From Anadara kagoshimensis (Eukaryota > Mollusca > Bivalvia > Arcoida > Arcidae): a stretch of DNA of 64,000 nucleotides. Position numbers and translations under genes: made by a program. The stretch's first letter is position 1, and each line of letters begins with the position of its first letter. The notes under the pieces are model-generated. The model did no database searches. It was not told the origin of the DNA and was given only the letters and a program-made list of their open reading frames with translations. Of the stretch, positions 1 through 52,194 are shown in pieces. Location of the stretch: positions 28,482,545 through 28,546,544 of the forward strand of contig CM037861.1 in NCBI GenBank assembly GCA_021292105.1, in the 5' to 3' direction.

Positions 1-788
1 TTTAGGCGCTGTCTCCGTTTGACTAGTAGCATCATTAACACCTATACATTCTGCAAATAAAAAAAAAAAACTCCATAATAATTTTTTATTTCGCGCAATT
101 TTCACACTGGTTAGTTTTTTAAATCCAAAATTTGTTTACGTGCAAATAACTTTCGCGATTAAGTTTCGCGAGGACAAAATAATCGCGAAGTTAATCGTCG
201 CGAGTTTGTTTCCAAAAATTGGTTTTATTAATACCACATATATTCAGCTAACTTTCTATCGCGAAAGTAAATAGTCGCGCAATGGTTTTAATAAGAGAAT
301 AGCGAAAGTTAATATTCGAACTTCCGCCAGTCATTCCTTCGATCTGTTCTTCAAGACACCATTTGCCTGGCGTAATTTCTCCAAAACTATAAATGAAGCC
401 CTATTTTAGGTAACTTTGTGTAAGCATCAACATTGATATAAGACGCGCTTATCATTGAAAAACTGACTCAGTTTTCCTTTTTTTCTTGGAGTTCACTTCT
501 GTATGTTTAGAATACTTTACTCAGTTAGGGAATAATGCTGAAATTTCACTTCTTATAGATTGATAGGATCTCTGTGACCATGGTATAAACTATTAGTAGT
601 TTTGAAAAAAAAGATTACAAAAAATTGCCAAAAATCTTAGTTAAGAAATGTTTGTGAAAATGGAGCCAGAATACTTACCCCTTTTTCTTGCTTGATTTGG
701 AGAATTATTGCGACTATCATTTGATGTCTTGCTTTTTGTCGACACTTTTTTTAAACTAAATTTAAAAAAAAAATGAATTGTTGCTGAT

Positions 789-862
<74 letters not shown>

Positions 863-3570
863 TCAAACCCGTCTATAAAGGCAACCCAAGAGAACCAGTA
901 AAAGTGGTCTCTACTCTTTATGGACAGGTGGCCTTTATATACAGGTTCAAATAATATGAATAAAGAACTATTGGGATACAATTCTACTTGCCTTTATAAG
1001 CAGGTGACCCTTATATAGAGGTGGCCTTTATATACAGGTTCAAATAATATGAATAAAGAACAATTGGGATACAATTCTACTTGTCTCTATAAGCAGGTTA
1101 CCCTTATATAGAGGTGGTCTTTATATACAGGTTCAAATAATATGAATAAAGAACAATTGGGATACAATTCTACTTGCCTTTATAAGCAGGTGACCCTTAT
1201 ATAGAGGTGGCCTTTATATACAGGTTCAAATAATATGAATAAAGAATAATTGGGATATAATTCTACTTGTCTCTATAAGCAAGTTACCCTTATATAGAGG
1301 TGGCCTTTATATACAGGTTCAAATAACATGAATAAAGAACAATTGGGATACAATTCTATTTGCCTTTATAAGCAGGTTACCCTTATATAGAGGTGGCCTT
1401 TATATACAGGTTCAAATAATATGAATAAAGAATAATTGGGATATAATTCTACTTGTCTCTATAAGCAGGTTACCCTTATATAGAGGTGGCCTTTATATAC
1501 AGGTTCAAATAATATGAATAAAAAACAATTGGGATACAATTCTACTTGCCTTTATAAGCAGGGGACACTTATATAGAGGTGCCTTTAAGGCAGGTTGGAC
1601 TATACCATTCTAATTCCGTGAAAGCATTTAATCGTGATGTCCAAATTTTCGCGGTATTCATGGACAATATATATGACCCACGAATTTACATGTCATCGAA
1701 CATTTTATATTACAAACTTACTTTAGATGGTTACCTCAAAACACGAATACTAGTATGTCATCTCAAGAAATTGAAAGACAAACTTTCTCACAATAGTATC
1801 TGCCCAGTTTTGGTGGTAAAAGTCTTTTTGAACACTTGTCCAATTATAGCTCCCGATTTGGCATCAGAAAAAAATTGAAAGAGAGAAAGAGATGTAGAAT
1901 TTAAATGAAAATAAGTGATTACCTTTCTTTTCCCATTTTTATTTGTTCTAGATCAGCTTTAGTCTTCTTGCCTTTTCGTTTGATACAACAAACTATTAGC
2001 AGTACGATAATACAGATAAATGAAGCAGCTAGGACAAGCCCAAATATCAGTCTGACTGAAATATTATCGAAATTAATTTTTATATCACTTATTCAGAGGC
2101 ACAAGCCTACAGTGGCCAGATCTTATAATAATAACAATAATAAAACCAGCATACAACGTCATGTAGTTAATAGAAAGTCGTATCATATGTATTTTCCGTC
2201 ATATACCACTTTTTGAATGTATTTTATGATTAAATTCTAAAAAAAAATGGTATGCTTGTGTACCAGCCGACCACGTCGAAACCCCCGAATCGTTTTCAAA
2301 ATTGTCTTTGCAAACATTCATAATGGGTGTTTACCACATGGTACGCTGGCAAACCTGATTAGGGGTCACTGGTTGTAAAATATCTAGAGATCCCTACAAA
2401 CATGTTGAATCACACCCGATTGCCGTTGTGACATTGGGGCAAGATAGCCGAATCAAAGCGTTATTATCTTCAACTCAAAGAAGTCCAAGGACCGTTGCGA
2501 GTTTGACAACAGTCTACAATGTATTTCAAGCGAGAAAAGGATTCCGTTGCAATAGGTCCTTGTTGGCTGGATCGATTACAGTATTAATGGACTACGTTGT
2601 CTAAAGAAATACCTAAACGACGATTTATAATGGATTTTTATAAAAAGGATAATTGAAATATATCCATTATTCGATTATTGAATATTCAAACTTCATTCAT
2701 AAATAGTTTTACTCGAATTAAGGGAAGTTCACTACCTTAGCTCAGTTGGTAGAGTGCTCGTTTTGTATGTGGCATGTTGTCGGTTCGAACCCCGGCCGGG
2801 TCTGATCAGAACTTAAAAATGGGAATTGACTGTCCTTCCGCTAAGCATTTAGAAATGAATTTTCATAATAAACTTTATATTACAAATGTAGGGTATCCAT
2901 AGATTAGACCAATATACGGATATAACGTCTCGATATAAGTGAAATATTCTTGACTGGGACGTTAAACACCATTACTCACTCAACTCTAATATACGGATAT
3001 ATGTAATTTATGAATCGGATAATAGATATCCATAAATCAAACTTAAATCCATAAAATTATGGATATCCAAAAATAAGAAGGATTTATGGATATCCAAAAT
3101 TCCAATCATGAATATCCATAAATCAAATAATATATCCGGATATTCATAATTAAAATAAGATTATGGATATCTGTAATTTGAATATGCAAATCAAATAAAT
3201 CTATATATCTTAAACAAAGAAGGATTTTAGGATGTCCATCATTCGAATTATATTATAGATACCCATACAATAAAATAACCCTTACGGAGCACCCAGCCTC
3301 CTTTCCCTGGTGGAAGTTCACGTATTTGACCAAATTTGTCAGTTTCAAAGTTTTTACTTTGCTTTTGTGATTTGGACACGGATTAAGATGATTGTTTTTG
3401 ATTATGGATATGTTGTACAAAGACATAGTATTTTGACTTACTGGCATATGAATCAGTAACTTGAGATTCAGCACTGATACTGGTACTGGTAACAACTGTA
3501 GACTGTTCTCTACTAGTAGTGGTCCCGTATGGCCCAGTCGTTGATGTAGGTGATATGTGACAGGATGGAT
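1..3570 (-). CDS. Single-pass membrane protein gene, left-arm copy, partial at both ends
   Basis: This is the mirror image of the gene at 13339-17025. Exons on the minus strand are 3442-3570, 1923-2055, 679-755 and 50 down to the window edge. Each of the three complete exons has exactly the same length as its right-arm partner (129, 133 and 77 nt), with the same splice borders and open phases. The last exon is cut by the window start after 50 nt, so its stop codon is not seen. Upstream exons are absent: between 3570 and the apex there are only repeats and a retrotransposon. This copy may be a duplicate created by misassembly. Confidence 0.6.
793..858. repeat. (AT)n microsatellite, left arm
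   Basis: About 33 perfect AT units lie in the intron of the membrane-protein gene. The right-arm partner is at 16049-16119. The YIYIYI reading frame across it is an artefact. Confidence 0.98.
861..1600 (+). repeat. Tandem array inside an inverted-repeat element, left arm
   Basis: About seven units of 90-95 bp each carry the blocks tataagcaggt, tatatagaggtggc and aataaagaacaattggga. The array is bounded by cagtcaaacc at the left and caggttggact at the right. These are the inverted ends of the single-copy element found at 18162, 26322, 39760, 40500, 46217 and 47570, so the array is an internal expansion of that element. Confidence 0.9.
2731..2987 (+). mobile_element. tRNA-derived SINE, left arm
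   Basis: It has a pol III A box (tagctcagttggtagag) and B box (ggttcgaacccc), then the family body. It ends with the shared tail gatataagtgaaatattctt and ccattactcactcaactc. The middle of the body is shortened relative to the copy at 43301. It is a SINE and not a functional tRNA gene, because the same head recurs with the same non-tRNA body. Confidence 0.85.
2990..3245. repeat. AT-rich satellite-like block with GATATCC motifs, left arm
   Basis: Imperfect short units built on atggatatccataaat recur in both orientations, so the block can form many small hairpins. The mirror is at 13675-13925. No coding potential is seen. Confidence 0.7.
3280..3425. repeat. Dispersed repeat ending in CCTGGTGGAAGTTCACGT, left arm
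   Basis: The block gagcacccagcctcctttcc, then tggtggaagttcacgt and agtttcaaagtttttacttt, recurs at 13500-13640 (mirror), 40150-40290, 41945-42010, 51390-51515, 56395-56590 and 61725-61925. Short reading frames across it are shadows of the repeat. Confidence 0.7.
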
Positions 3571-3799
3571 CTACAAACACATCAATATTTGATAGTAATT
3601 CAATTCCTCTTTCATGTATTTTGATTGACCATATCTGTCCTGTCATTTTTGCATGAATTGATTAGCTCTCAATGACGTCATGTTATATTATAACGTTATA
3701 TCAATAACTACAATATTCTATTATATGCAAATACTAAAAGTTGATAGGTTTTTTAGATATATTGACAAATATAGTAATTCTAGCAATTTCCCCCTTAAG

Positions 3800-4145
3800 A
3801 ACCTTGCTGTTTCCCTATTTTGATCTAAGATTTATGCAAATCTGAAACTGGGTGTCATAAGTATGCTACACATGCAATATCTAAGCTATATTTCTTGTAT
3901 TTTCAGAGGAGAAGACTTTTAAAGATTTTTACAATTCCCCTTCATGAGGCCCTTGGGAATGCTTCCTTCATTTGTGCAAATCTGAAAGCCCTTCACGCAG
4001 GCATGATTGTCAGTAAGTTAAACAAATGGTCTGGTAGTTTTGGAGACGATTAAAATGTGAAGTGTTAACGCACGACAGACGCCGGACGTAGACCATCGCA
4101 TTATTTCATCTGAGCTTTCAACTGAGGTGCGCTAAAATGAACATT
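3800..4145 (+). repeat. End fragment of an AGGTCA-type composite repeat, left arm
   Basis: The segment around 4025-4140 (ggtctggtagttttggagac, attaaaatgtgaagt, cgcacgacagacgcc, catctgagcttt) matches the end of the larger repeat at 31370-31510. The mirror is at 12775-13120. No gene is seen. Confidence 0.6.
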
Positions 4146-4289
4146 TCGTACATTGAATAATTCGCATAGCAAGTTTAAGGCAGATTGTTTTTACAAATTA
4201 AACGAGAATAATGTTGGAAACTTTATCAGCTGGGACAACAACATACACGTTTGTTGTGTGTGTCTGTTAGAATTGCTAAAATGTCTCCA

Positions 4290-7090
4290 GGGTTAGTTTA
4301 AACAATATTTTATTTAATTCATAAATACATAAGTAAAATAGATAACATATACAAATGTAGAAAATAGGATTCGGGAACAAGCCATGTGCTTATATTAACC
4401 GTCTCCATATCTGAAAGTTACAATGTTTGACCGATGAATATATATAATTATGTGGGGAGAAAAAAATATATGAATTATAAATAAATAAGATAGTGTACCA
4501 TTAAACAATTAATAAATAAATCAGTGTACCATAAATATGCAAGTTATTTTATCAAAAACGCTTAGTGAGTTCACTGATATATCTTTGGACAGTTGAAAAA
4601 ATTTCATTATTTTGTGCGTCGGAAAGTAAATCTGCGTCACCATATAAAATTAAGTCAGTGGTAATATTATAACTCTGTTCAAGTTTGAAGATTGTGTTTT
4701 GACGAATAAAATTTAGCAAAAAATGAAAAGTAGACTCTACTTCACCACATGAACACCGAGGACTGTAAATTAAATTTTTATCAAATAGATGTTTATTAAA
4801 GAGTTGAATTTGACCTTTGCGTGATCCGGAAGAATAAAAAGAAGGGACTTTAGAATTCATGTCAATAGATTGTTTAAAACCATAAAGCGAACCATTTCTT
4901 ACATCTTGGGAAATTTCGTTCCAATCTCTAATGGTTTGAGGGAGAAATGAATTGTAATGAAAATAAGTTCTAAAACGAGTAGTCAGTAAACGATTTTGTC
5001 TAGTGCCGTAACGATGAGTATAGTCATTGGGAATTAAGTTTGTTAAATAATCAGGTGTCAGTCCGTGGTACATTTTGTAAAGTTGTATCAGTCGATGTTT
5101 CTTCCGTCTGTCGTGTAATGTGTCCCATCCAGTCTCTTTGTATAAACGAAAAATGCTAGTCAGTTTGGTAGCGCCAGTTACAATTCTGGCTGCTTCTAAA
5201 TTAATTTTTTAAGTTGTTCTGTCAAGTTGTCAGTTATATTGTCCCATACTATGTCAGCATATTCCAATAAAGGCCTTATAAAAGTTATATGTATATATTT
5301 TTTCTAGACTGTGACGGTCGAGTTTATACTTAAGTTTTCTCAGGAGGGAAAGTCTGTTATTAGCTTTTGATAAAATGGCAACTATATGATTTTTCCAGTA
5401 CCCATCAGAGGAAAACAATATTCCAAGATGTTTGTGGGTTTCGACTTCGGTTATTGGAGTGTGGTTCATATAAAGTTGGGGATGAAAGGGCATAGATGTT
5501 TTGCGTGAAATAATCATGGATTCTGTTTTGTTGGGGTTAAATGTGACCAGCCACTTTTGAGCCCAGTTATGTATAAGATCAAGATCATTATTCAAAATGA
5601 CTGCAGCATCAAATGGATCTTCAACAGTTATATATAAAGAAGTATCATCAGCAAACAGTTTAATTAATTTCACTTTGTATGTTATTTACTATATCATTAA
5701 TATAAATTATAAAAAGAATAGGACCCAGAATTGAACCTTGTGGAACGCCTGCTCGTATAAATTCCCAGGTTGAAGTTACATTATTGTTAAAAACAACCCT
5801 TTGTTGTCTACCTTCCAAATAACTTTTAAACCACAGAAGTAAAGAACCACCTATTCCAATAGACTTTAATTTTTCTAATAAACCCCGATGCCAAACTCTG
5901 TCAAAAGCTTTGCTTATGTCGCAAAATATAACCCTTATTTCTTTCCCACGATCGAGCGCTGTAGAAATGTCATTGCTAATGTCTAAAAGTTGATTTACAG
6001 TTGAGTCACCCGGTCTGAAACCAGACAGAAAAGGTGTAATGATAGAGTTGTCCAGTAAATAGTTGTTTAAATATTTATAAACACAACGTTCCATAACCTT
6101 GCCAAGAATGTTTAACAATGAAATTGGGCGATAATTACTAACATTACTTGGATCTTCTTTCTTATATACAGGAGTAAAATTTGCTTGTTTCCAAATAGTT
6201 GGAAATATGGAGTTTTGTAACAGTTTTGTAAAATATTTACTTAGAGGAAAGCATAGTATATCAGAAGCCCGGATTAGTAAGAGGGGGTGGATATTGTCTG
6301 GACCAGAAGCTTTTGATGCATTAAGGCAATTTATAATAACTTCAACATCCTTAGGAGTGATTTGTAAGTTTGATAAGGAGTATTCAGGAACGGGGAGGTT
6401 TGGGGGTGATTGATTATCATCACAGAGATAAGTTTGTTTTACAAAAAAAAACTTGTTGAGTGCGTCAACTTTATCTTGCTCCTCGCTTATCACTGTATTT
6501 CCAATAAGTAACGGTGGGATAGAGGAAGACTTTTTTATACACATAAATGTTTTAGCAATTTGCCACCAGTTTTTCTCGTCAAGCTTACCAGAACACAATT
6601 TTTTAGTCATTTTAGTGTAGTATTGTTCTTTGGCTAATCTACAAGCAGTAATACACCTATTTCTTATTTTTCTAAAATCAGCCCAGTGAGCAACTTCATT
6701 ACTTTTCTTAGCCTTTTTATGAATTCGCTTACGTTTTCTTATTAATTTTCTTATATTATTATGCATCCAAGGCTTGTCGTTATGTCTAACTGTTACTTGT
6801 TTATTAGGTATATTTTTTTTTTTAATGTTTGTAATGCGAAGAGCGGTATTATTCAAATTATCATCATTTATAAAATCCCAATTAGTATCTAAAAGGTTCT
6901 CCCTATATAAATCCCAATTAGCTTGGTTATAATACCAAATAGTTCGTTGGATAGAAATATTCTGTGGTTTCTCAATATTCAAGACAAGAAAATGGGACAG
7001 TGATATCTAACATTGACATCGTAAAAAGATTCACCCACACCACTGTTAATCACTATAGTTTCGTCATTTATGAGATTTCTGAGGAAGGTT
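4290..7090 (-). pseudogene. 5'-truncated non-LTR retrotransposon (jockey/CR1-like reverse transcriptase), left arm
   Basis: The main frame, 6982 down to 5660 (440 codons), covers most of the reverse transcriptase: NYRPISLLNILGKVMERC, SKAFDRVWHRGLL and GVPQGSILGPILFIIYINDI. A frame change near 5665 leads to the catalytic box FADDTSLY at about 5650. Further shifts near 5285 and 5205 separate this from the C-terminal part (5073-4552), which has PRCSCGEVESTFHFLL, a Cys-rich tail usual in such elements. Upstream of 6982 a remnant with YHCPIF resembles the end of an APE endonuclease; the rest of the endonuclease is gone. The 3' UTR ends near 4300 with an ATTTTATTTAA tract and no long poly-A. It could not be autonomous. 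Clade assignment is by motif style only. Confidence 0.85.
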
Positions 7091-7234
7091 TAATACTCAC
7101 AGACCCTTTAGGCTTAGCAACTGTTTAATAAAAGATCTAAAACCAATATTAGATTAGGCCAATAGACTGTGTGATTTAGGTATTATAAGACAACATGTTT
7201 GATTTTCATAAACGCCCAGCACCCAGTATTACTA

Positions 7235-7410
7235 TTGTCAAATACCATTTTTTGAATTTAATCATTAAATACATTCAAAAAATGGTAAATGACAATATGT
7301 CATATACCATTTTTTGAATGTATTTGATGATTAAATTTAAAAAATGGATATTGTCATATACCATTTTTGAATGCATTTAATGATTAAATTCATAAATGGT
7401 ATATGACACT
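7235..7410. repeat. Short hairpin repeats (ATATACCATTTTTTGAATG), left arm
   Basis: A near-palindromic unit of about 50 bp, reading taccattttttgaatg one way and cattcaaaaaatggta the other, occurs about three times in a row. A single unit is at 2203-2256. Mirrors are at 9510-9680 and 14660-14712. Function unknown. Confidence 0.65.
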
Positions 7411-7449
7411 ATCATCTATCCTTATAATTATCCCTGTACATAGTCTCTA

Positions 7450-7662
7450 AATTGACGTTTCGCCGACCACGCCCACAATGTTCCGACACTGACCGCTAAC
7501 ACGGTACCAAAAGCAGTGTCAAGGCAATTTATGACGTACTAGTGTCAGTGACGTCATTAAACGGCACAATTCAGGCCCCGTTTTTATTTTTATTTTTTGC
7601 GTCTAATTCGACATGCCGGCCTTTGTCGTGACGTTGTGAGCGTGGTCGGCGATCCGTCAATT
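7450..7662. mobile_element. Small inverted-repeat element, GACCACGCCC family, left arm
   Basis: The ends are inverted: aattgacgtttcgccgacca at the left and gtggtcggcgatccgtcaat at the right, about 213 bp apart, with no coding sequence. Other copies are at 9251-9462, 23086-23296 and 27814-28025. It is a non-autonomous MITE-like element; the parent transposon is not in the window. It appears inserted in another repeat, whose parts flank it. Confidence 0.85.
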
Positions 7663-7804
7663 ACATTGGACATTTGTTTGAATATTCAAATTAGATGTCA
7701 AACAGCCAGGTCAAACTTGGCACACTATAATTAAAAGTTGGGTCCATTAAATTATTAGGTCTCTTGAGGTCCGTATTCTGTGCCATGGTTCCCACAACTG
7801 ACCC

Positions 7805-8002
7805 ATTGGGGTTCGCCGCTGTACCACGTGATACCCTCTAACGTTTGCGGAATACTTATTTCCAATGGATATTGAATAACATGAGATGACGTTTTCCCGC
7901 GAAAACGACGTCATTCCGGGAATCTGTGACGCTGACGTTTCCAAAACGTTCCGCACAAACGTTAAGAGGTTTTGATCACGTGGTACAGCGGCGAATCCCA
8001 TT
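7805..8002. mobile_element. Small inverted-repeat element, CACGTG family, left arm
   Basis: The ends ttcgccgctgtaccacgtga and tcacgtggtacagcggcgaa are inverted and about 200 bp apart. The whole unit is nearly self-complementary, and each end carries a CACGTG E-box. Copies are at 8912, 30059, 40972 and 51989, with a half copy at 21556. Short reading frames in it are shadows. Confidence 0.88.
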
Positions 8003-8440
8003 CATAATTCCCTGAAAATTGCGCTACATTTAATACCTGACAGAATTCCATTCCCCCCAACATTCTAGCGGTTCTACATACATGTAAGAAAAATGCAACT
8101 AGCCGCAGCAAGATTTTTTGCCATTGCACAGTTGGTAAAAATGGCAATAAAGGGTAGTAAAATATTTTAGTAATTAGCAAGTGAAAGAGAAATAAAAAAT
8201 AAGGTACTAGTCCATAGTTAGTATGTCATGTTTTGTTCAGCACTGTGGGAAGAGCAAGTCAGATGAGAAATTTAAGCACATGATTAAAATTTCAAAGGGA
8301 CGCAACTCTTGAGAAAGAAATATAGACTATAAAAATATAAAATACCCTAGGCTAGCAATTTCCAATCATTTTCTAATTTTTTTAATTTCCTGACAATTTT
8401 TTAATTCATTGACAATTCCTGGACCGAAATATTTCTGTCG

Positions 8441-8477
8441 TCAACTGCCCTTTTTTATTGATGATATGGGGCCCTAG
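8441..8477. other. Apex spacer of the palindrome
   Basis: This 37-bp unpaired segment lies between the arm ends at 8421-8440 (ggaccgaaatatttctgtcg) and 8478-8497, which are exact reverse complements. It contains no gene or recognised repeat. Confidence 0.9.
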
Positions 8478-8911
8478 CGACAGAAATATTTCGGTCCAGG
8501 AATTGTCAATGAATTAAAAAATTGTCAGGAAATTAAAAAAATTAGAAAATGATTGGAAATTGCTAGCCTAGGGTATTTATATTTTATAGTCTATATTTCT
8601 TTCTCAAGAGTTGCGTCCCTTTGAAATTTTAATCATGTGCTTAAATTTCTCATCTGACTTGCTCTTCCCACAGTGCTGAACAAAACATGACATACTAACT
8701 ATGGACTAGTACCTTATTTTTTATTTCTCTTTCACTTGCTAATTACTAAAATATTTTACTACCCTTATTGCCATTTTTACCAACTGTGCAATGGCAAAAA
8801 ATCTTGCTGCGGCTAGTTGCATTTTTCTTACATGTATGTAGAACCGTTAGAATGTTGGGGGGAATGGAATTCTGTCAGGTATTAAATGTAGCGCAATTTT
8901 CAGGGAATTAT

Positions 8912-9108
8912 GAATGGGATTCGCCGCTGTACCACGTGATCAAAACCTCTTAACGTTTGTGCGGAACGTTTGGAAACGTCAGCGTCACAGATTCCCGGAA
9001 TGACGTCGTTTTCGCGGGAAAACGTCATCTCATGTATTCAATATCCATTGGAAATAAGTATTCCGCAAACGTTAGAGGGTATCACGTGGTACAGCGGCGA
9101 ACCCCAAT
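8912..9108. mobile_element. Small inverted-repeat element, CACGTG family, right arm
   Basis: Mirror copy of 7805-8002. Inverted ends with CACGTG are intact on both sides. Confidence 0.88.
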
Positions 9109-9250
9109 GGGTCAGTTGTGGGAACCATGGCACAGAATACGGACCTCAAGAGACCTAATAATTTAATGGACCCAACTTTTAATTATAGTGTGCCAAGTTT
9201 GACTGGCTGTTTGACATCTAATTTGAATATTCAAACAAATGTCCAATGTA

Positions 9251-9462
9251 ATTGACGGATCGCCGACCACGCTCACAACGTCACGACAAAGGCCGGCATG
9301 TCGAATTAGACGCAAAAAATAAAAATAAAAACGGGGCCTGAATTGTGCCGTTTAATGACGTCACTGACACTAGTACGTCATAAATTGCCTTGACACTGCT
9401 TTTGGTACCGTGTTAGCGGTCAGTATCGGAACATTGTGGGCGTGGTCGGCGAAACGTCAATT
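9251..9462. mobile_element. Small inverted-repeat element, GACCACGCCC family, right arm
   Basis: Mirror copy of 7450-7662, with at least one substitution between the arms. Confidence 0.85.
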
Positions 9463-9829
9463 TAGAGACTATGTACAGGGATAATTATAAGGATAGATGA
9501 TAGTGTCATATACCATTTATGAATTTAATCATTAAATGCATTCAAAAATGGTATATGACAATATCCATTTTTTAAATTTAATCATCAAATACATTCAAAA
9601 AATGGTATATGACATATTGTCATTTACCATTTTTTGAATGTATTTAATGATTAAATTCAAAAATGGTATTTGACAATAGTAATACTGGGTGCTGGGCGTT
9701 TATGAAAATCAAACATGTTGTCTTATAATACCTAAATCACACAGTCTATTGGCCTAATCTAATATTGGTTTTAGATCTTTTATTAAACAGTTGCTAAGCC
9801 TAAAGGGTCTGTGAGTATTAAACCTTCCT

Positions 9830-12610
9830 CAGAAATCTCATAAATGACGAAACTATAGTGATTAACAGTGGTGTGGGTGAATCTTTTTACGATGTCAATG
9901 TTAGATATCACTGTCCCATTTTCTTGTCTTGAATATTGAGAAACCACAGAATATTTCTATCCAACGAACTATTTGGTATTATAACCAAGCTAATTGGGAT
10001 TTATATAGGGAGAACCTTTTAGATACTAATTGGGATTTTATAAATGATGATAATTTGAATAATACCGCTCTTCGCATTACAAACATTAAAAAAAAAAAAA
10101 GCATATACCTAATAAACAAGTAACAGTTAGACATAACGACAAGCCTTGGATGCATAATAATATAAGAAATTAATAAGAAAACGTAAGCGAATCATAAAAA
10201 GGCTAAGAAAAGTAATGAAGTTGCTCACTGGGCTGATTTTAGAAAAATAAGAAATAGGTGTATTACTGCTTGTAGATTAGCCAAAGAACAATACTACACT
10301 AAAATGACTAAAAAATTGTGTTCTGGTAAGCTTGACGAGAAAAACTGGTGGCAAATTGCTAAAACATTTATGTGTATAAAAAAGTCTTCCTCTATCCCAC
10401 CGTTACTTATTGGAAATACAGTGATAAGCGAGGAGCAAGATAAAGTTGACGCACTCAACAAGTTTTTTTTTGTAAAACAAACTTATCTCTGTGATGATAA
10501 TCAATCACCCCCAAACCTCCCGTTCCTGAATACTCCTTATCAAACTTACAAATCACTCCTAAGGATGTTGAAGTTATTATAAATTGCCTTAATGCATCAA
10601 AAGCTTCTGGTCCAGACAATATCCACCCCCTCTTACTAATCCGGGCTTCTGATATAGTATGCTTTCCTCTAAGTAAATATTTTACAAAACTGTTACAAAA
10701 CTCCATATTTCCAACTATTTGGAAACAAGCAAATTTTACTCCTGTATATAAGAAAGAAATCCAAGTAATGTTAGTAATTATCGCCAATTTCATTGTTAAA
10801 CATTCTTGGCAAGGTTATGGAACGTTGTGTTTATAAATATTTAAACAACTATTTACTGGACAACTCTATCATTACACCTTTTCTGTCTGGTTTCAGACCG
10901 GGTGACTCAACTGTAAATCAACTTTTAGACATTAGCAATGACATTCTACAGCGCTCGATCGTGGGAAAGAAATAAGGGTTATATTTTGCGACATAAGCAA
11001 AGCTTTTGACAGAGTTTGGCATCGGGGTTTATTAGAAAAATTAAAGTCTATTGGAATAGGTGGTTCTTTACTTCTGTGGTTTAAAAGTTATTTGGAAGGT
11101 AGACAACAAAGGGTTGTTTTTAACAATAATGTAACTTCAACCTGGGAATTTATACGAGCAGGCGTTCCACAAGGTTCAATTCTGGGTCCTATTCTTTTTA
11201 TAATTTATATTAATGATATAGTAAATAACATACAAAGTGAAATTAATTAAACTGTTTGCTGATGATACTTCTTTATATATAACTGTTGAAGATCCATTTG
11301 ATGCTGCAGTCATTTTGAATAATGATCTTGATCTTATACATAACTGGGCTCAAAAGTGGCTGGTCACATTTAACCCCAACAAAACAGAATCCATGATTAT
11401 TTCACGCAAAACATCTATGCCCTTTCATCCCCAACTTTATATGAACCACACTCCAATAACGAAGTCGAAACCCACAAACATCTTGGAATATTGTTTTCCT
11501 CTGATGGGTACTGGAAAAATCATATAGTTGCCATTTTATCAAAAGCTAATAACAGACTTTCCCTCCTGAGAAAACTTAAGTATAAACTCGACCGTCACAG
11601 TCTAGAAAAAATATATACATATAACTTTTATAAGGCCTTTATTGGAATATGCTGACATAGTATGGGACAATATAACTGACAACTTGACAGAACAACTTAA
11701 AAAATTAATTTAGAAGCAGCCAGAATTGTAACTGGCGCTACCAAACTGACTAGCATTTTTCGTTTATACAAAGAGACTGGATGGGACACATTACACGACA
11801 GACGGAAGAAACATCGACTGATACAACTTTACAAAATGTACCACGGACTGACACCTGATTATTTAACAAACTTAATTCCCAATGACTATACTCATCGTTA
11901 CGGCACTAGACAAAATCGTTTACTGACTACTCGTTTTAGAACTTATTTTCATTACAATTCATTTCTCCCTCAAACCATTAGAGATTGGAACGAAATTTCC
12001 AAGATGTAAGAAATGGTTCGCTTTATGGTTTTAAACAATCTATTGACATGAATTCTAAAGTCCCTTCTTTTTATTCTTCCGGATCACGCAAAGGTCAAAT
12101 TCAACTCTTTGAATAAACATCTATTTGATAAAAATTTAATTTACAGTCCTCGGTGTTCATGTGGTGAAGTAGAGTCTACTTTTCATTTTTTGCTAAATTT
12201 TATTCGTCAAAACACAATCTTCAAACTTGAACAGAGTTATAATATTACCACTGACTTAATTTTATATGGTGACGCAGATTTACTTTCCGACGCACAAAAT
12301 AATGAAATTTTTTCAACTGTCCAAAGATATATCAGTGAACTCACTAAGCGTTTTTGATAAAATAACTTGCATATTTATGGTACACTGATTTATTTATTAA
12401 TTGTTTAATGGTACACTATCTTATTTATTATAATTCATAATATTTTTTTCTCCCCACATAATTATATATATTCATCGGTCAAACATTGTAACTTTCAGAT
12501 ATGGAGACGGGTTAATATAAGCACATGGCTTGTTCCCGAATCCTATTTTCTACATTTGTATATGTTATCTATTTTACTTATGTATTTATGAATTAAATAA
12601 AATATTGTTT
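9830..12610 (+). pseudogene. 5'-truncated non-LTR retrotransposon, right arm, further broken
   Basis: Mirror of the element at 4290-7090. It shares that copy's frameshifts and has extra ones: a longer A tract near 10090 and one-base losses near 10170, 10190, 10525, 10755, 10790, 10945, 11460 and 12000. The long 440-codon frame is therefore split into pieces (9929-10123, 10304-10582, 10793-10975). The FADDTSLY box remains at about 11260, in the frame 11237-11527. Most private differences are single bases in short homopolymers, which looks like poor consensus quality more than decay. Confidence 0.85.
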
Positions 12611-13338
12611 AAACTAACCCTGGAGACATTTTAGCAATTCTAACAGACACACACAACAAACGTGTATGTTGTTGTCCCAGCTGATAAAGTTTCCAACATT
12701 ATTCTCGTTTAATTTGTAAAAACAATCTGCCTTAAACTTGCTATGCGAATTATTCAATGTACGAAATGTTCATTTTAGCGCACCTCAGTTGAAAGCTCAG
12801 ATGAAATAATGCGATGGTCTACGTCCGCGTCTGTCGTGCGTTAACACTTCACATTTTAATCGTCTCCAAAACTACCAGACCATTTGTTTAACTTACTGAC
12901 AATCATGCCTGCGTGAAGGGCTTTCAGATTTGCACAAATGAAGGAAGCATTCCCAAGGGCCTCATGAAGGGGAATTGTAAAAATCTTTAAAAGTCTTCTC
13001 CTCTGAAAATACAAGAAATATAGCTTAGATATTGCATGTGTAGCATACTTATGACACCCAGTTTCAGATTTGCATAAATCTTAGATCAAAATAGGGAAAC
13101 AGCAAGGTTCTTAAGGGGAAATTGCTAGAATTACTATATTTGTCAATATATCTAAAAAAACCTATCAACTTTTAGTATTTGCATATAATAGAATATTGTA
13201 GTTATTGATATAACGTTATAATATAACATGACGTCATTGAGAGCTAATCAATTCATGCAAAAATGACAGGACAGATATGGTCAATCAAAATACATGAAAG
13301 AGGAATTGAATTACTATCAAATATTGATGTGTTTGTAG

Positions 13339-16045
13339 ATCCATCCTGTCACATATCACCTACATCAACGACTGGGCCATACGGGACCACTACTAGTAGA
13401 GAACAGTCTACAGTTGTTACCAGTACCAGTATCAGTGCTGAATCTCAAGTTACTGATTCATATGCCAGTAAGTCAAAATACTATGTCTTTGTACAACATA
13501 TCCATAATCAAAAACAATCATCTTAATCCGTGTCCAAATCACAAAAGCAAAGTAAAAACTTTGAAACTGACAAATTTGGTCAAATACGTGAACTTCCACC
13601 AGGGAAAGGAGGCTGGGTGCTCCGTAAGGGTTATTTTATTGTATGGGTATCTATAATATAATTCGAATGATGGACATCCTAAAATCCTTCTTTGTTTAAG
13701 ATATATAGATTTATTTGATTTGCATATTCAAATTACAGATATCCATAATCTTATTTTAATTATGAATATCCGGATATATTATTTGATTTATGGATATTCA
13801 TGATTGGAATTTTGGATATCCATAAATCCTTCTTATTTTTGGATATCCATAATTTTATGGATTTAAGTTTGATTTATGGATATCTATTATCCGATTCATA
13901 AATTACATATATCCGTATATTAGAGTTGAGTGAGTAATGGTGTTTAACGTCCCAGTCAAGAATATTTCACTTATATCGAGACGTTATATCCGTATATTGG
14001 TCTAATCTATGGATACCCTACATTTGTAATATAAAGTTTATTATGAAAATTCATTTCTAAATGCTTAGCGGAAGGACAGTCAATTCCCATTTTTAAGTTC
14101 TGATCAGACCCGGCCGGGGTTCGAACCGACAACATGCCACATACAAAACGAGCACTCTACCAACTGAGCTAAGGTAGTGAACTTCCCTTAATTCGAGTAA
14201 AACTATTTATGAATGAAGTTTGAATATTCAATAATCGAATAATGATATATTTCAATTATCCTTTTTATAAAAATCCATTATAAATCGTCGTTTGGTATTT
14301 CTTTAGACAACGTAGTCCATTAATACTGTAATCGATCCAGCCAACAAGGACCTATTGCAACGGAATCCTTTTCTCGCTTGAAATACATTGTAGACTGTTG
14401 TCAAACTCGCAACGGTCCTTGGACTTCTTTGAGTTGAAGATTAATAACGCTTTGATTCGGCTATCTTGCCCCAATGTCACAACGGCAATCGGGTGTGATT
14501 CAACATGTTTGTAGGGATCTCTAGATATTTTACAACCAGTGACCCCTAATCAGGTTTGCCAGCGTACCATGTGGTAAACACCCATTATGAATGTTTGCAA
14601 AAGACAATTTTGAAAACGATTCGGGGGTTTCGACGTGGTCGGCTGGTACACAAGCATACCATTTTTTTTTAGAATTTAATCATAAAATACATTCAAAAAG
14701 TGGTATATGACGGAAAATACATATGATACGACTTTCTATTAACTACATGACGTTGTATGCTGGTTTTATTATTGTTATTATTATAAGATCTGGCCACTGT
14801 AGGCTTGTGCCTCTGAATAAGTGATATAAAAATTAATTTCGATAATATTTCAGTCAGACTGATATTTGGGCTTGTCCTAGCTGCTTCATTTATCTGTATT
14901 ATCGTACTGCTAATAGTTTGTTGTATCAAACGAAAAGGCAAGAAGACTAAAGCTGATCTAGAACAAATAAAAATGGGAAAAGAAAGGTAATCACTTATTT
15001 TCATTTAAATTCTACATCTCTTTCTCTCTTTCAATTTTTTTCTGATGCCAAATCGGGAGCTATAATTGGACAAGTGTTCAAAAAGACTTTTACCACCAAA
15101 ACTGGGCAGATACTATTGTGAGAAAGTTTGTCTTTCAATTTCTTGAGATGACATACTAGTATTCGTGTTTGAGGTAACCATCTAAAGTAAGTTTGTAATA
15201 TAAAATGTTCGATGACATGTAAATTCGTGGGTCATATATATTGTCCATGAATACCGCGAAAATTTGGACATCACGATTAAATGCTTTCACGGAATTAGAA
15301 TGGTATAGTCCAACCTGCCTTAAAGGTCACCTCTATATAAGTGTCCCCTGCTTATAAAGGCAAGTAGAATTGTATCCCAATTGTTTTTTATTCATATTAT
15401 TTGAACCTGTATATAAAGGCCACCTCTATATAAGGGTAACCTGCTTATAGAGACAAGTAGAATTATATCCCAATTATTCTTTATTCATATTATTTGAACC
15501 TGTATATAAAGGCCACCTCTATATAAGGGTAACCTGCTTATAAAGGCAAATAGAATTGTATCCCAATTGTTCTTTATTCATGTTATTTGAACCTGTATAT
15601 AAAGGCCACCTCTATATAAGGGTAACTTGCTTATAGAGACAAGTAGAATTATATCCCAATTATTCTTTATTCATATTATTTGAACCTGTATATAAAGGCC
15701 ACCTCTATATAAGGGTCACCTGCTTATAAAGGCAAGTAGAATTGTATCCCAATTGTTCTTTATTCATATTATTTGAACCTGTATATAAAGACCACCTCTA
15801 TATAAGGGTAACCTGCTTATAGAGACAAGTAGAATTGTATCCCAATTGTTCTTTATTCATATTATTTGAACCTGTATATAAAGGCCACCTCTATATAAGG
15901 GTCACCTGCTTATAAAGGCAAGTAGAATTGTATCCCAATAGTTCTTTATTCATATTATTTGAACCTGTATATAAAGCCACCTGTCCATAAAGAGTAGAGA
16001 CCACTTTTACTGGTTCTCTTGGGTTGCCTTTATAGACGGGTTTGA

Positions 16046-16123
<78 letters not shown>

Positions 16124-17025
16124 ATCAGCAACAATTCATTTTTTTTTAAATTTAGTTTAAAAAAAGTGTCGACAAAAAGCAAGACATCAAATGATAGTCG
16201 CAATAATTCTCCAAATCAAGCAAGAAAAAGGGGTAAGTATTCTGGCTCCATTTTCACAAACATTTCTTAACTAAGATTTTTGGCAATTTTTTGTAATCTT
16301 TTTTTTCAAAACTACTAATAGTTTATACCATGGTCACAGAGATCCTATCAATCTATAAGAAGTGAAATTGTCAGCATTATTCCCTAACTGAGTAAAGTAT
16401 TCTAAACATACAGAAGTGAACTCCAAGAAAAAAAGGAAAACTGAGTCAGTTTTTCAATGATAAGCGCGTCTTATATCAATGTTGATGCTTACACAAAGTT
16501 ACCTAAAATAGGGCTTCATTTATAGTTTTGGAGAAATTACGCCAGGCAAATGGTGTCTTGAAGAACAGATCGAAGGAATGACTGGCGGAAGTTCGAATAT
16601 TAACTTTCGCTATTTCTTATTATTAAAACCATTGCGCGACTATTTACTTTCGCGATAGGAAAATAATTAGCTGAATATGTGGTATTAATAAAACTAATTT
16701 TTGGAAACAAACTCGCGACGATTAACTTTCGCGATTATTTTGTCCTCGCGAAACTTAATCGCGAAAGTTATTTGCACGTAAACAAATTTTGGATTTAAAA
16801 AAACTAACCAGTGTGAAAATTGCGCGAAATAAAAAATTATTATGGAGTTTTTTTTTTTTATTTGCAGAATGTATAGGTGTTAATGATGCTACTAGTCAAA
16901 CGGAGACAGCGCCTAAAACAACTAACCCGACAATTGTCTCCATTCCAGTGAATGGGGTACAAGAAAGTACACATACAGTTGCTGTTACTGGGTCAAAGAT
17001 TGCGTTACATGGACCATGTGATTAG
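13339..17025 (+). CDS. Single-pass membrane protein, C-terminal exons (5' part missing)
   Basis: Four exons join with matching phases: 13339-13467, 14854-14986, 16156-16232 and 16868-17025 (TAG). All have AG acceptors and GT donors. The first encodes a Ser/Thr-rich stretch (TSTTGPYGTTTSREQ) like an extracellular stalk. The second begins IRLIFGLVLAASF and gives a hydrophobic helix of about 22 residues followed by the basic stop-transfer CIKRKGKK. The last two encode a polar cytoplasmic tail of about 95 residues rich in Lys, Ser, Asn and Thr. This suggests a type I membrane protein, but the family is not recognised. Exon 13339 begins inside a codon, so at least one upstream exon is required; none is visible between the palindrome apex and 13339. 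An in-frame ATG at 13263 lies in what I read as intron. Confidence 0.6.
13675..13925. repeat. AT-rich satellite-like block with GATATCC motifs, right arm
   Basis: Mirror of 2990-3245, directly next to the right-arm SINE tail. Confidence 0.7.
13926..14182 (-). mobile_element. tRNA-derived SINE, right arm
   Basis: Mirror of the SINE at 2731-2987, on the opposite strand. The B box ggttcgaacc and A box are legible on the minus strand at about 14115-14172. Confidence 0.85.
15318..16048 (-). repeat. Tandem array inside an inverted-repeat element, right arm
   Basis: Mirror copy of the array at 861-1600, with the same unit count and order of unit variants. It lies in the intron between the exons at 14854-14986 and 16156-16232. 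Confidence 0.9.
16049..16119. repeat. (TA)n microsatellite, right arm
   Basis: Mirror partner of 793-858. Its length differs slightly from the left copy, as expected for a slippage-prone tract. Confidence 0.98.
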
Positions 17026-18160
17026 GTTAGGACAATGAGGATAACAAAGATTATGTGACATAGAATATGTATTTAATATAAGACAATGGGGTTTACAAAG
17101 ATCAAGTGACATAGATCATGGACCATTTGACATTGATAGTGACATCAGGGATGAAGATAAGCAGGGGCCCAGTAGCCCATTGCTGCTAAAAATCAGTCTG
17201 GGCCCTTGATGTTTACACATTTTAGCTATTTATTACGTTTACATCTTCTTTCTGAAGTGAGCAGCTGGGCCCCTAACTCAAAATAGTTAAGCTTTATCCC
17301 TGGGGGCATTGATTAGTTCTTTGAACGGAGTTTAATGTCACAATCAATTGCAAGTTAAGAGTATTTTGCTGATTCCGAGACGACAGCAGCGTTTGGTGAC
17401 CTGGCAGAAATTTTGACCTTTGCAGTACACTCAGGGCAATTTGCAGGGAGGGCTCTTTAACAAGTTCGACTAATTAGCCCACTTAACCCCCACGTTAAAC
17501 CCAAACACTGAAGTCAAAAATTAAAGAGGGGAATTAATGGGCTGATAAGTCGGACTATCTTTAAGGTGCCACGTCTGCTATAACAAGGACTATTGATTTT
17601 TAAGGTATCTTCCAAAGGACCATGTGCTGGGATTTCTAAATGCCAAGTGAAAGAATAGTTATTACCAATTTATCAGTAAAAAGTGACAATGAATTGAGGT
17701 TTCACTGTACTGGTAATGCTCCGTGTCACTATGTTCAGGATGTAATGGAGCAGGATCCATGCTAAACTATAATTACAGACGAAATTACATGTAAATTAAT
17801 ATTGTAATGTTTTTGTTGATATTTTGACTGAAAATGAGATTATCTAGTTATATTGTTTTTCTTTTGATTGAATTTTAATATAGTCCTTCCACAATGTGAT
17901 GGAAGAGTGTTTATAAACACGGATGGGTTTAAAAAATGCATATAGGTGTAAGTAGCATATCGCCATAAGCATGATAAGCGTATAATCAAGCTGGCTCACG
18001 CTTTTACCCTAATATTAAAATAGTCATGTTTGTATACTTTGCCATCATATCGTGGACGTCCCTATACCTGTAAATATGCAAGAGTATTTAATATTTAAAT
18101 AAACACATGTATATATTTTGTTTTAATTGATTTTTTAAGCCTAAGATTTTATTAAATTAC
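17026..18160 (+). other. Probable 3' UTR of the membrane-protein gene with an inserted repeat
   Basis: The stretch follows the TAG at 17023-17025 and has no further reading frame. An AATAAA at 18098-18103 is a plausible poly-A signal about 1.07 kb downstream of the stop. The element at 17147-17304 lies inside it. The UTR call is inference from position. Confidence 0.4.
17147..17304. mobile_element. Small inverted-repeat element, CAGGGATGAAG family, copy 1
   Basis: It begins cagggatgaagataagcagg and ends ttaagctttatccctg, giving short inverted ends CAGGGAT/ATCCCTG. The same unit occurs at 26533-26688 and, reversed, at 41469-41632. CAGGG termini are compatible with hAT-type elements, but no clear target duplication is seen here. 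Confidence 0.75.
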
Positions 18161-18161
18161 A

Positions 18162-18343
18162 GTCCAACCTGCCTTAAAGGCCCCATCTTTATAAGGGTCA
18201 CCTGCTTTTTAAAGGCAAGTAAAAATTTATCCAAATTGCTCTTTATTCATGTTATTTGAACCTTTTTATAAAGGCTACCTGTCCATCAAGGTCACTTATA
18301 CTGGTTCCCTGTGGTAGTCTTTATATGCAGGTTTGACTGTACA
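18162..18343. mobile_element. Small inverted-repeat element, CAGTCAAACCTG family, single copy
   Basis: Ends are tacagtccaacctgc and gcaggtttgactgta, inverted with one mismatch. The interior carries the ataagggtcacctgc and ttatttgaacc blocks that are amplified at 861-1600. TA at both ends fits a TA target site. Confidence 0.8.
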
Positions 18344-18601
18344 TTTAAAATTTATGAAGATTCATAGTTAATAGTGATTGTGGATTGATACACTAGCACC
18401 ACTGTGTGATTCTGGCACATGCAACTTCAAAACTTTGTGCTTCTGACACAAGCAAAACATTGTGGCCATCTGAATCCGCTGATTTTACTCCAAATTGGAC
18501 ACTACACTGAAGCAAAGTTAGGAAATGTTTATATGAAGCAATTTGGTTAAGTGATAATTTTATAAACATGGATCCCATGCTAGACTTAATGTAAATAGGG
18601 A

Positions 18602-19545
18602 ATTTTTCGCGTGGGTAAAATTTCCGCTAATTTGGCGCTGTCATGTGCTACTTTGAATTGTATTATTTCATAAAAATTCAAAACTTTTGATTTGACATTT
18701 TTAATTAAATAAGGAATATTCTGATTTTATTGTTACCTAAAGTTTTACTTTTACTTTAAAACTTATTTTCTACAATTAATTTTTTTTAATTGCATTATTT
18801 GTATAAAGATTTATTCAATAAGCGTTTTATGTAACAAGTCGGCTTTAGATTGAGTGACACCTCGAGATTACTCATTCTACATTTTCGGCATTTTCTTAAT
18901 TATTAAGGATATTGTTAAAACAACTAATGGATAATCTCGGTCTCTAAAAAGGACGTAATTAACACTTATATCGATCAGCTTAACTTAATAATTATTTTTT
19001 CTCAGGGCAATCCTCCTAGGTAATACCTAGCGACAATATTGTTAAGTCGCGTAATTTCATTGGATGTTCACATTTTTTTCTGTAATTTAATTGGTTAAAA
19101 GTTATTTTCGAATTTCACGTAAAGTGAATTTTGGCACTGCTTCGGCAGTCTAGTCGGAGCCCGGCTAAGTGACTGAAGTTTTTAATTAAAACGGAAAACC
19201 GTTTATTTCGTATATATATTTTATATAATTTCGCAACTTTGTGTGCATTTTGGACATTATACGGAATTACCGTATTTATTGTATTCACCATATAGTTTGT
19301 TATATATATTTTATGTTAACGAATATTTACAATACAAGACAGTGAACTTTATCTTAGACTTCTAGTTTTATTTAACTACAACTACAGACTACCAGCTAAT
19401 TCCCCAAAACAACAAAATACGGACTAAAAGAAATATACTATTAACTTTTTAATTTTTTTTTGTCATGTGCTACTTTTGAATTGTATTATTTCATAAAAAT
19501 TCAAAAGTAGCACATGACAGCGCTAATAAAATTATCGGGTAACTT
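18602..19545. mobile_element. Possible ~0.94-kb element with hairpin-bearing inverted ends
   Basis: The left end reads gcgctgtcatgtgctacttt at about 18637. The right end reads its complement, aagtagcacatgacagcgc, at about 19505. The right side also holds a perfect hairpin at about 19463-19517, in which tcatgtgctacttttgaatt pairs with its complement across a 15-nt loop. The interior has no recognisable gene. Exact ends are uncertain. Confidence 0.45.
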
Positions 19546-21555
19546 TTACCTTCACGAAAACTACCACCATACAGGTTAATATATCGTCAATATCGTAGAA
19601 TATATATATATACATCCACTTATATTGGTTTATGCTAATATTACTCCCACGTGACATGCCAGTTTTTAGAAATTGCGTAATTTTCACCCGCAGAAAATAA
19701 TCCCCATTACACCAATTCAAAATTTCTCGACATTTTCCTGACAGAGTTTTAGAATTCCCTGACATTCTTACACACTTCAAAACAAGAATGCTGCTAAGCA
19801 GAGTAAGATATGTTGTTTACAATTACTGCAATTAGTTAGCAACTGTTGGTAAGGATCACAACATTTATGGCTAACTACAAAAGGAAATAAGACATAAAAG
19901 TACAAGTAATATCATGTAAAATAGAAACAAAAACTAAGGATCTTGTCAAAATTATGTCCTGTTCTGTTCAGTAGTGTTGGAGGAGTAGACCAGATATAAA
20001 AAAACATGATTAAATTTTCAAAGGGACACAACTCGCATAAAATTCCCTGATATATCCTTTTTTTAATTCCCCGACACTATTAAAATTACTATTCCCGGAA
20101 TATTAAAAAAAGGCCGATGTTATTAGCATGTATTTTTTATACCCGTACGCATGTAACTTCATGTACAGATTGAATAGAATCAAATAGTCCAATTTTGAAT
20201 TAAAACAAAAGTTTATTTATGTTTTTCCAAAAAGTTGCTGTCTAAATTATTGATGATCGATCTTTGATCGTGATGAACTGCAAAAAACGATCCGACCGTA
20301 TGACCAAAACAAAATGGCGGATCTAAAACCGTATTCAGTACGTTTTTTTTTTTTTTAATCAAATTAGTCTATTTATTTGACCCAAATATGACAAGTTTTT
20401 ATTAATTTAAAATATACTTTAATTATCCTTAAATTGATGTATTTATCTGTTTATAGCCAATCATAAAGTTATAAACCCCATGTACCAGTGTGTACATGTA
20501 TACTATAAAATACGGGTATAAAAAATATGTGGTAATAACACATTTGTTATTGACAGGTACCAGGCAATAATCACTTCGAAAAAAAAAAAAACCTGACTTT
20601 TTCCTTATGTTATAAAACAATCAATTGCTCTCGTAAATAAAAAAAGTCAGATCAAAGTCAGATTCTTTATTTCAGAATTTTATTTAAACTAGTAAAAATT
20701 GATAAAATTATCATTAAAAGTGGAAATTTACAACAAAATACACAAAAATATCACAGACTGTTAAAGCATATAAAGCTTAAGTGTTTCTTTTTGAAACAAG
20801 AGGCCCATGGAGCATTATCGCTCACCTGAAAACATGTCAAATTGAACTCCAATACTGTAAATGTATTTAATTTCACATGTATTTATTTTCAAGGTATAGG
20901 ATATTTAGACATATCCGGACACTTTAATTTTTGCATTTTTGAAATATGCACTTATCTATAACACAATAAGCATAGTATAATATTCGCTTGGTATTAATTT
21001 TTTAGCAAAACAAATGACTGCGAAAATTAGTATACTGCGAAAATAAATACATTCTCAATTTTCGCTTGGTATTAACATTTTGCGCAAAACAAGCAACCGC
21101 AAAAATCAGTATACTGCGAAAATAAATACATTTACAGTAACTTTGACAATTTTATATAGCAAGACAAATGCCAAGGTTTGTGCAAATGGTGTAATAAACA
21201 TTCTAAGGATACCATATGATCAAGGTCAATCAGGTTAAATCTTGTTTCATGAATTTATAATGGTTTTTGTTCATATTTTAAATAAACTTCTGTCTTTGGA
21301 AATCACATGTACAGTTGAAAACAAAACTTCATAATTTGTATAATTATTGACAATAACAAGCCACACAAATTGTGAAAGAATAAAGTTCCCTAAGGCCTCC
21401 ATTATGATAAAGGGATAAATGAATGAACACAAAAATACAAATGTACAAGTCACCCATGATCTGACAGCAGGGTGCTTATAAAAACAAGCCATATAGGTGC
21501 AAGTAGCATATTGCTGTTTGTGTATAATCAGGTTGGGTCACACTTTATTTGCTTC
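19546..21555. other. No gene seen; AT-rich with fragments of dispersed repeats
   Basis: No reading frame with recognisable protein similarity is found. Near 20805 there is the start block caagaggcccatgg/gctcacctg of the AGGTCA composite repeat. Around 20970-21140 a segment with ttttcgcttggtatta and tactgcgaaaataaatac is present twice, about 95 bp apart. Confidence 0.5.
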
Positions 21556-21632
21556 AATGGGGTTCACTGCTGTACCACGTGATACCCTCTTATTTTGTGC
21601 AGAACACTTATTCTCAATAGATATGGAATCAC
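21556..21632. mobile_element. Half copy of the CACGTG inverted-repeat element
   Basis: Begins aatggggttcactgctgtac followed by cacgtgataccctctta, matching one end of the 200-bp family. The second half is missing. Confidence 0.7.
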
Positions 21633-21881
21633 ATGTTGATGCTTTGCACCAAGTTTCATAAAATAGTGCTTCACAGATTTTGAGAATTGCTCCAGACAAG
21701 AGGTGTCTGGAACAATATAGGAACATAAGCACGGAAGTACAGGCAAACATTTGAAATTTACCATAATATCAATCTCTTTTTTGTGAAAAATAGGGAATGA
21801 AAAAACAAATATAACAGAATACAATAAATTAAACTGGAAGCATTAGTGTGTAGTGTTAAAAGCAGTGACTATAACATGACT

Positions 21882-22465
21882 TAAACTTCTCGCTTTCAGT
21901 ATATTTCTTTTCATTTTAAACTGTGTAGCTAGCCTGCACACTTTCCCTTCAAAAGGCAGGTGACAAAAAGGGTATTATTTGAGAACAGAATAAATCCAAC
22001 TGGATATAGCTTAAGTATGTGTAGAGCTAAAATAACAGGTGCCAATAACAAGGAGAAATTTAAAACTTCTCGCTTTCAGTATATTTCTTTTCATTTTAAA
22101 TTGTGTAGCTAGCCTGCACACTTTTTCTTCAAAAGGTGGATGATAAAAAGAAATATTTAAGAATCCATTAAATCCAACTGGATATAGTTTAATATGTGTA
22201 GAGCTAAAATATAACGGGTGCCTATAACATTGAGACTTCTGAAACTTCCTACTTTCAGTAAATCCCTTTTTATTTTAAACTGTGTAGTTAACCTGTACAC
22301 TTTTCCTTCAAAAGGCAGGTGATAAAAAGTAATGTTTGAGAATGCAATAAATCCAACTGGATATAGCTTAAATATGTGTAAAGCTAAAACCTTGTGTCTA
22401 TATCATAGAAAATTCTGAAACTTTTCACTTTCAATTTATTCCTATGCATGCTAAATTGTGTAGCT
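21882..22465 (+). repeat. Tandem repeat, ~178-bp unit, about 3.3 copies
   Basis: Units start near 21882, 22063, 22242 and 22417 (partial) with acttctcgctttcagtatat. Each has tgtgtagctagcctgcacac, ttcaaaaggcagg and aaatccaactggatatag. It ends about 110 bp beyond the stop codon of the minus-strand DESI-PUL gene, so it may lie in or just past that gene's 3' UTR. Confidence 0.85.
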
Positions 22466-22576
22466 GGCCTGCATGCACAGATTCAACACATTCAAATCCC
22501 TCACTGTTTGGAGAACACTGAAGGACGACATTGCATTAACAATAAAGTCATGGAGTTTATTGATACTGATTCTTCA

Positions 22577-39299: not shown

Positions 39300-39571
39300 T
39301 GTGGATTTACTCGGTATCTGCTTCGTCTGTCTGTATCATGTATGTTCAGTATTGGAATGTCACCGGCGTTTTCCGATTATCGCTCTTCGATAATTTATTA
39401 TCCGTTAGGTATCATTTATTATTCACTTACTGTATTAGTACAAATTACTCGGATAAATATTTTTAGAGTGATCTTCCCTGACAAAGACGTTATCATTGTT
39501 TCTTTTAAGGTCAAGATTTATCGGCTTATTCGGATAAATAATCGCAAAAACGAAAGCATAACATGAAGTGA
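39300..39571. promoter_or_regulatory. Putative bidirectional promoter between DESI-PUL and ECI1
   Basis: The two start codons face away from each other across 272 bp. The interval has seven GATAA or TTATC cores (39377-39381, 39389-39393, 39398-39402, 39452-39456, 39490-39494, 39518-39522, 39533-39537) and the repeated word tcggataaata. No TATA box is obvious. A three-codon upstream frame (ATG AAG TGA) at 39563 precedes the ECI1 start. Transcription starts are not known. Confidence 0.6.
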
Positions 39572-46102: not shown

Positions 46103-46151
<49 letters not shown>

Positions 46152-51955: not shown

Positions 51956-51988
51956 CAATATAGTTGTGCATTTATGATGCCAGTAGGA

Positions 51989-52194
51989 ATTGGATTAGCC
52001 GCTGTACCACTTGTTGCCCCCTAACAATAGTGCAGAAAACTTATTTCCAATGGAATCCGTTATGGGATTGCATGAGATGACGTTTTCCCCTAAAAACTGC
52101 ATTATTCCTGGTATTTGCTCCGTCAACGTTTTCCAAAATGTTCCCTACAAATGTTAAGATGTATTCATCACATGGTACAGTGGCGAATCCAATT
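51989..52194. mobile_element. CACGTG-family element in the ECI1 3' UTR
   Basis: Begins aattggattagccgctgtac and ends gtacagtggcgaatccaatt, 33 bp after the ECI1 stop codon and before its poly-A signal, so it is probably part of the mature mRNA. Confidence 0.8.

Follow-up and report, generated by a model that had tools for sequence, protein, structure and literature searches.

Does a large, nearly perfect palindrome in a genome assembly reflect the chromosome, or was it made on the way from the library to the contig? This question is raised by a locus of the bivalve Anadara kagoshimensis. The window analysed here is the whole stretch of 64,000 nucleotides at C5:28482545-28546544 (contig CM037861.1) in a source assembly of 1.115 Gb and 36 contigs. 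It opens with a palindrome whose two arms face each other across a short spacer (positions below are those of the window, and negative ones lie upstream of it). Judging from the sequence, this palindrome is very probably an assembly artefact, that is, a fold-back read that turned at a natural hairpin and was kept as the tip of a contig.

Extent and borders of the palindrome

Positions 1-16917 match their own reverse complement with 99.23% identity in a self-alignment, which is far beyond chance. The inner arms (1-8440 and 8478-16917) measure 8440 bp each and are separated by a spacer of 37 bp. The first-pass annotation had described the palindrome in these terms. The arms and the spacer are confirmed, but the outer limits 1 and 16917 proved to be cuts made by the window. 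In a self-comparison of the window together with 100 kb upstream and 60 kb downstream (224 kb), the palindrome spans -9870..26865, or 36.7 kb, with arms of about 18.3 kb that are 98.98% identical over 36.9 kb of alignment. Calculated from the coordinates, the left arm has a length of 18,311 and the right arm of 18,388, the left one being 77 bases shorter.

On the left, the mirror coincides exactly with the end of a contig. The palindrome is directly preceded by a run of exactly 1000 N (-10870 to -9871), and the left arm begins at C5:28472674 (window -9870), the first base after this run and thus the contig tip. The left arm leads into the scaffold gap, and no flank is visible there, although an unassembled one may exist. 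The outer limit of the right arm at 26865 is the place where the comparison stops at the contig tip. Beyond the palindrome, the 224 kb contained no inverted match of at least 400 bp, except for an array of a 145-bp unit. On the other side of the gap, we could also observe a tandem array with interruptions, built of units of about 1.67 kb, which extends from -54887 to -10871 (L013-L017) and reaches up to the gap.

The outer arm was used as a query against the assembly (24300-26865, not mid-arm; 40 of 9729 first-look candidates scored). Two matches were full-length, and they are the two arms themselves, the left one starting at C5:28472674. Among the remaining 41 matches listed, 38 belong to a dispersed repeat (about 290-328 bp) and the other 3 are short self-matches. 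A query that crosses the border of the right arm (26700-27700) matched the left arm over the 166 bases at its start, and its other matches were all to dispersed repeats (67-87% identity); no second full copy of 26866-27700 was among the matches listed. A second unique flank was thus not found among the matches listed for these two queries.

Differences between the arms

The differences between the arms are mostly insertions or deletions (indels). For the inner 8.44 kb, a first aligner gave 45 events (right arm: 25 losses, 15 gains; in addition 5 substitutions) and a second aligner 47 (24 losses, 14 gains, 9 substitutions). Over the full arms there are 166 events, not counting an overhang past the contig tip. 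Of these, 97 shorten the left arm, 41 shorten the right arm, and 28 are substitutions, only 10 of which stand apart from indels in 18,267 aligned columns. Differences of the homopolymer type had been noted before. This description fits most of the 138 indel events, since 121 concern a single base and 100 are located in runs of at least 2, but not all of them, as only 40 are located in runs of at least 4.

The shorter arm switches along the length of the palindrome. Within 4 kb of the apex, the right arm is shorter in 16 events and the left arm in 3, with 3 substitutions (5.5 events/kb). The corresponding numbers are 10, 12 and 7 at 4-9 kb (5.8 events/kb), 5, 9 and 1 at 9-13 kb (3.8 events/kb), and 10, 73 and 17 at 13-18.3 kb (18.8 events/kb). 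Fisher's test for this switch gives 1.9e-9, a value that is descriptive only, because the zones were set after the distribution had been seen and neighbouring events are not independent. The right arm as the sole bad arm is ruled out, the outer left arm being worse. A pure AT run at 793-859 also differs in length between the arms; it lies close to a tandem array of a 93-bp unit with 7.1 copies (926-1587).

Repeats with copies elsewhere in the assembly tell which arm is the odd one. Both arms carry a fragment of a long interspersed nuclear element (LINE), which we compared with the best 18 of 45 non-arm matches, some of them partial. The right arm has lost a base at 8 columns, and at every one of them the 18 other copies unanimously carry this base, as the left arm does. 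Taking all 18 differing columns, the right arm is odd in 11, the left arm in 6, and one is tied. Private one-base deletions number 9 in the right arm and 1 in the left arm; the 18 other copies have 0 to 4, except for L035 with 7 and L036 with 8. These two copies have only 2 private substitutions each, and their deletions may indicate that repeats in other parts of the assembly are under-polished as well. The private substitutions (27 in the left arm, 29 in the right arm) appear to be mostly common to both arms, which differ from each other by 0.16% in this element. Since the same long deletions are also found in both, the two LINEs can be regarded as copies of one insertion. The reading frame in the left arm had been taken as intact. 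It actually consists of three stop-to-stop pieces of 448, 143 and 218 amino acids (aa), and it is broken further in the right arm.

The opposite is seen in the dispersed repeat of the outer arm, which was compared with 8 of its 38 matches at other loci (from the upper part of the list, with one passed over). At 8 of 8 differing columns, the state of the left arm occurs in none of the 8 other copies, and the state of the right arm is the commonest one at 7 of these columns. The arms therefore alternate as the odd one, mostly the right arm in the LINE and the left arm in the outer repeat. The earlier view that the private changes belong to the right arm holds mainly near the apex, including all 8 losses in the LINE, but the left arm takes this role in the outer 5 kb and at two spots in the LINE. 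Such an alternation suggests that one locus was written twice and that its reads were shared; two real arms, each with its own reads, would have little reason to alternate.

The apex hairpin and the origin of the palindrome

The apex of the palindrome lies on a dispersed element. A 121-base query from the apex gave at least 45 matches at at least 39 loci besides the palindrome (best 40 of 206 candidates scored), and 6 of the 39 other loci match the whole spacer and both sides of the stem. L003 and L004 each contain a hairpin element of about 75 bp whose inverted ends enclose a loop and which is embedded in unrelated flanks, and the element with its inverted ends was also observed at L007 and L008. 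DNA folding of the window copy gave a 20-bp stem with -21.6 kcal/mol (z -8.4), compared to -31.1 kcal/mol for L003 and -21.4 kcal/mol for L004. The spacer is native sequence, because the same sequence sits in dispersed genomic repeats, and an adapter remnant is ruled out on the same ground. In the window copy the outer stem is perfect and the inner stem is mismatched, as if one side of the outer stem had served as the template for the opposite side. The turn would be located in or beside 8478-8496, the second stem half of the element.

We also asked whether hairpin elements are the usual apexes of large palindromes, and no sign of this was seen in the copies compared. None of the six other copies (L003-L008, about 3 kb each, L005 and L006 being near-duplicates) shows a mirror over its flanks like the 3.1 kb inverted match of the palindrome (L001). 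Inverted matches near the element measure 39 to 153 bp at 67 to 85% identity, with none in L008; L007 has an off-centre inverted match of 487 bp at 79%.

The first-pass annotation had offered unequally polished fold-back reads as one source of the palindrome. This proposal is supported by the start at a contig end, by error-type differences that are private to one arm at a given place and are mostly length changes of one base, and by the odd arm as told by other copies. Taken together, the mirror at the contig end, the failure to find a second flank or a further outer-arm copy among the matches listed, and the alternating arms are best explained by a fold-back contig tip. In the real chromosome, the flank from 26866 onward would lead through the right arm into the hairpin (8422-8496) and on into sequence not seen here. 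A self-complementary library molecule, most likely a nanopore one, may have formed when the 3' end of a molecule, situated in the second stem half, folded onto the first stem half. End-repair synthesis would have joined both strands as one continuous molecule, which would be read as arm, hairpin and reversed arm. The assembler would then have retained the fold-back as a contig tip, next to which scaffolding placed the 1000-N gap. During polishing, a single pool of real reads would have been split over two copies of one locus, so that near the apex the left copy came out better, the right copy did so towards the unique flank, and the outermost left tip remained close to the raw sequence. The sequencing platform, the priming step and the competition for reads are the parts of this scenario that we infer.

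Fold-back reads of this kind are known. According to PMC12870357, they made up about 0.55-0.6% of Oxford Nanopore (ONT) genomic reads in the samples of that study and were virtually absent in its PacBio HiFi data; its authors consider library preparation as their most likely source, and typically fewer than half of the putative artefact reads have more than 11 bp between the arms. As in those reads, we see a near-perfect inverted copy about a point with a short inter-arm sequence. However, the structure described here is a contig tip in a chromosome-scale assembly, and its turn lies in a dispersed hairpin element. PMC7229812 reports that nanopore reads are of low quality past an inverted-duplicate junction, miss bases and have a second stretch that is consistently shorter. 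The arm after the turn is shorter here as well (the left arm, by the 77 bases mentioned above, and worst in its outer 5 kb). That study deals with single reads, many of them over validated duplications, whereas here an assembled consensus is concerned and the inner right arm is also affected.

Several observations weigh against a fold-back tip. All 6 LINE columns with an odd left arm fall at two spots, 4801-4802 and 6813. Single-base losses that look like errors are also seen in other repeats of high identity in this assembly, so they show uneven polishing and are by themselves no proof of a false palindrome. A simple single-read tip does not predict an inner right arm of lower quality than the inner left one. 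The inner right arm should have ordinary reads from the unique side, and competition between the copies in mapping during polishing would be needed to explain its deficit. A drop in nanopore quality would be expected at a real inverted duplication too. Finally, a cluster at 188-297 (mirror 16615-16729) combines dinucleotide, multi-base and substitution differences and looks more allelic than like read errors.

This cluster and the change in length of the AT run at 793 could be allelic if the apex were a head-to-head junction, made by the assembler, between two haplotypes of the same locus, as had been suggested earlier. We consider this extremely improbable. There are 28 substitutions, 10 of them isolated, in 18,267 columns versus 138 indel events, a ratio of indels to substitutions of about five, and allelic divergence would not make the shorter arm change sides along the palindrome as it does here. 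Measured by the usual behaviour of alleles, the density of substitutions does not look allelic, and the make-up of the differences speaks against a haplotype junction. A fold-back could also have come from other chemistry, namely whole-genome amplification or a missed PacBio adapter, and a modest share of the artefact explanation may go to this variant. An arm of 18 kb would suit a PacBio insert; the loss-biased errors of the left tip generally suit nanopore better. Both sources produce palindromic reads (PMC6218980), but a spacer that sits in dispersed genomic repeats is not an adapter.

A genuine young palindrome, the remaining suggestion, is less likely than a fold-back tip. Large palindromes are known to start at short inverted repeats. 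It is conceivable, though unlikely, that a broken or replicating strand folded at the hairpin and was copied, giving a real and very young palindrome of at least 36.7 kb, and that the contig broke in the left arm since assemblers fail there. The stability of the apex hairpin (z -8.4) would fit such an origin. The outer limit of the right arm is set only by the contig tip in the comparison, and nanopore reads degrade past inverted junctions. Inverted repeats have also been linked to chromosome rearrangements (PMC10164571, PMC6103520). With its apex on a short inverted repeat that encloses a small loop, the structure resembles inverted duplications that arise in vivo and are linked to short inverted repeats (PMC3734650, PMC10766183, PMC4689423); unlike in those, no second flank is seen here, the mirror ends at the contig end and the length changes are of the sequencing type. 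No other full-length copy of the outer arm that might lead to a second flank was among the matches listed (40 of 9729 candidates scored), and the mirror stops exactly where the contig does. The inner 8.4 kb, with 40 indel events versus 5 substitutions, does not look like the result of mutation, and over the full arms indels likewise far outnumber substitutions. Losses of the right arm in the LINE and of the left arm in the outer repeat are better suited to one locus written twice. A brand-new palindrome free of mutations and overlaid by consensus errors would escape the argument from the type of differences. Nevertheless, a germ-line palindrome of at least 36.7 kb, with arms almost without true substitutions and seeded at a dispersed hairpin transposable element, seems improbable to us. 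If it existed, hairpin elements would act in this genome as natural starting points for large inverted duplications.

Other features of the window and consequences

The features of the palindrome and its surroundings are compiled in Table 1. In a Pfam scan of 10 open reading frames (ORFs), only the 448-aa piece of the left-arm LINE passes the curated cut-off, with a match to RVT_1. The match of the 143-aa piece to the same family and a single match to DUF4937 fall below their respective cut-offs. Two minus frames over 16918-31917, the only frames of 16918-64000 that were scanned, had no Pfam match. Rfam gave one match resembling a transfer RNA (tRNA) at 43301-43370 (31.2 bits, cut-off 29), and ARAGORN found no tRNA in the window. 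The open frame of a putative exon end runs through 16917, as may be expected, since this position is no natural border; its mirror is cut by the window start. A tandem array at 33518-34948 has a 20-bp unit within a higher unit of 361 bp, and parts of it can be read as open frames (128 to 193 aa). At 52952-53825 and 30443-30893, two arrays in opposite orientation have a related 145-bp unit, with a similarity of about 81%.

Table 1. Coordinates of features in and around the palindrome (window positions)
Feature	Position	Strand	Basis
Left arm	inner part 1..8440; whole arm -9870..8440	+	alignment, 1000-N border
LINE retrotransposon fragment (reverse transcriptase, Pfam RVT_1), left arm	4555..7006	-	ORF and Pfam, copies aligned
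Dispersed hairpin element of about 75 bp, 20-bp stem, resembling a miniature inverted-repeat transposable element (MITE)	8422..8496	.	copies elsewhere, DNA folding
37-bp spacer, inner part of the dispersed hairpin element	8441..8477	.	copies elsewhere
Right arm, reverse complement of the left arm	8478..26865	-	self-comparison
Mirror LINE, right arm, with 8 one-base losses found in none of 18 other copies	9905..12354	+	alignment
Putative exon end, open frame from AG acceptor to stop, through 16917	16868..17025	+	frame only
Dispersed repeat of about 320 bp, outer right arm	25292..25616	+	assembly search, alignment
Flank of the right arm	26866..64000	.	self-comparison

The comparison with outside copies provides a cheap test: where arms alternate as the odd one against repeat copies from elsewhere, the locus has probably been written twice. 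Users of this assembly should note that any gene or repeat in the left arm (C5:28472674-28490984) is probably a spurious second copy and that real reading frames can be broken by the one-base losses in the inner right arm.

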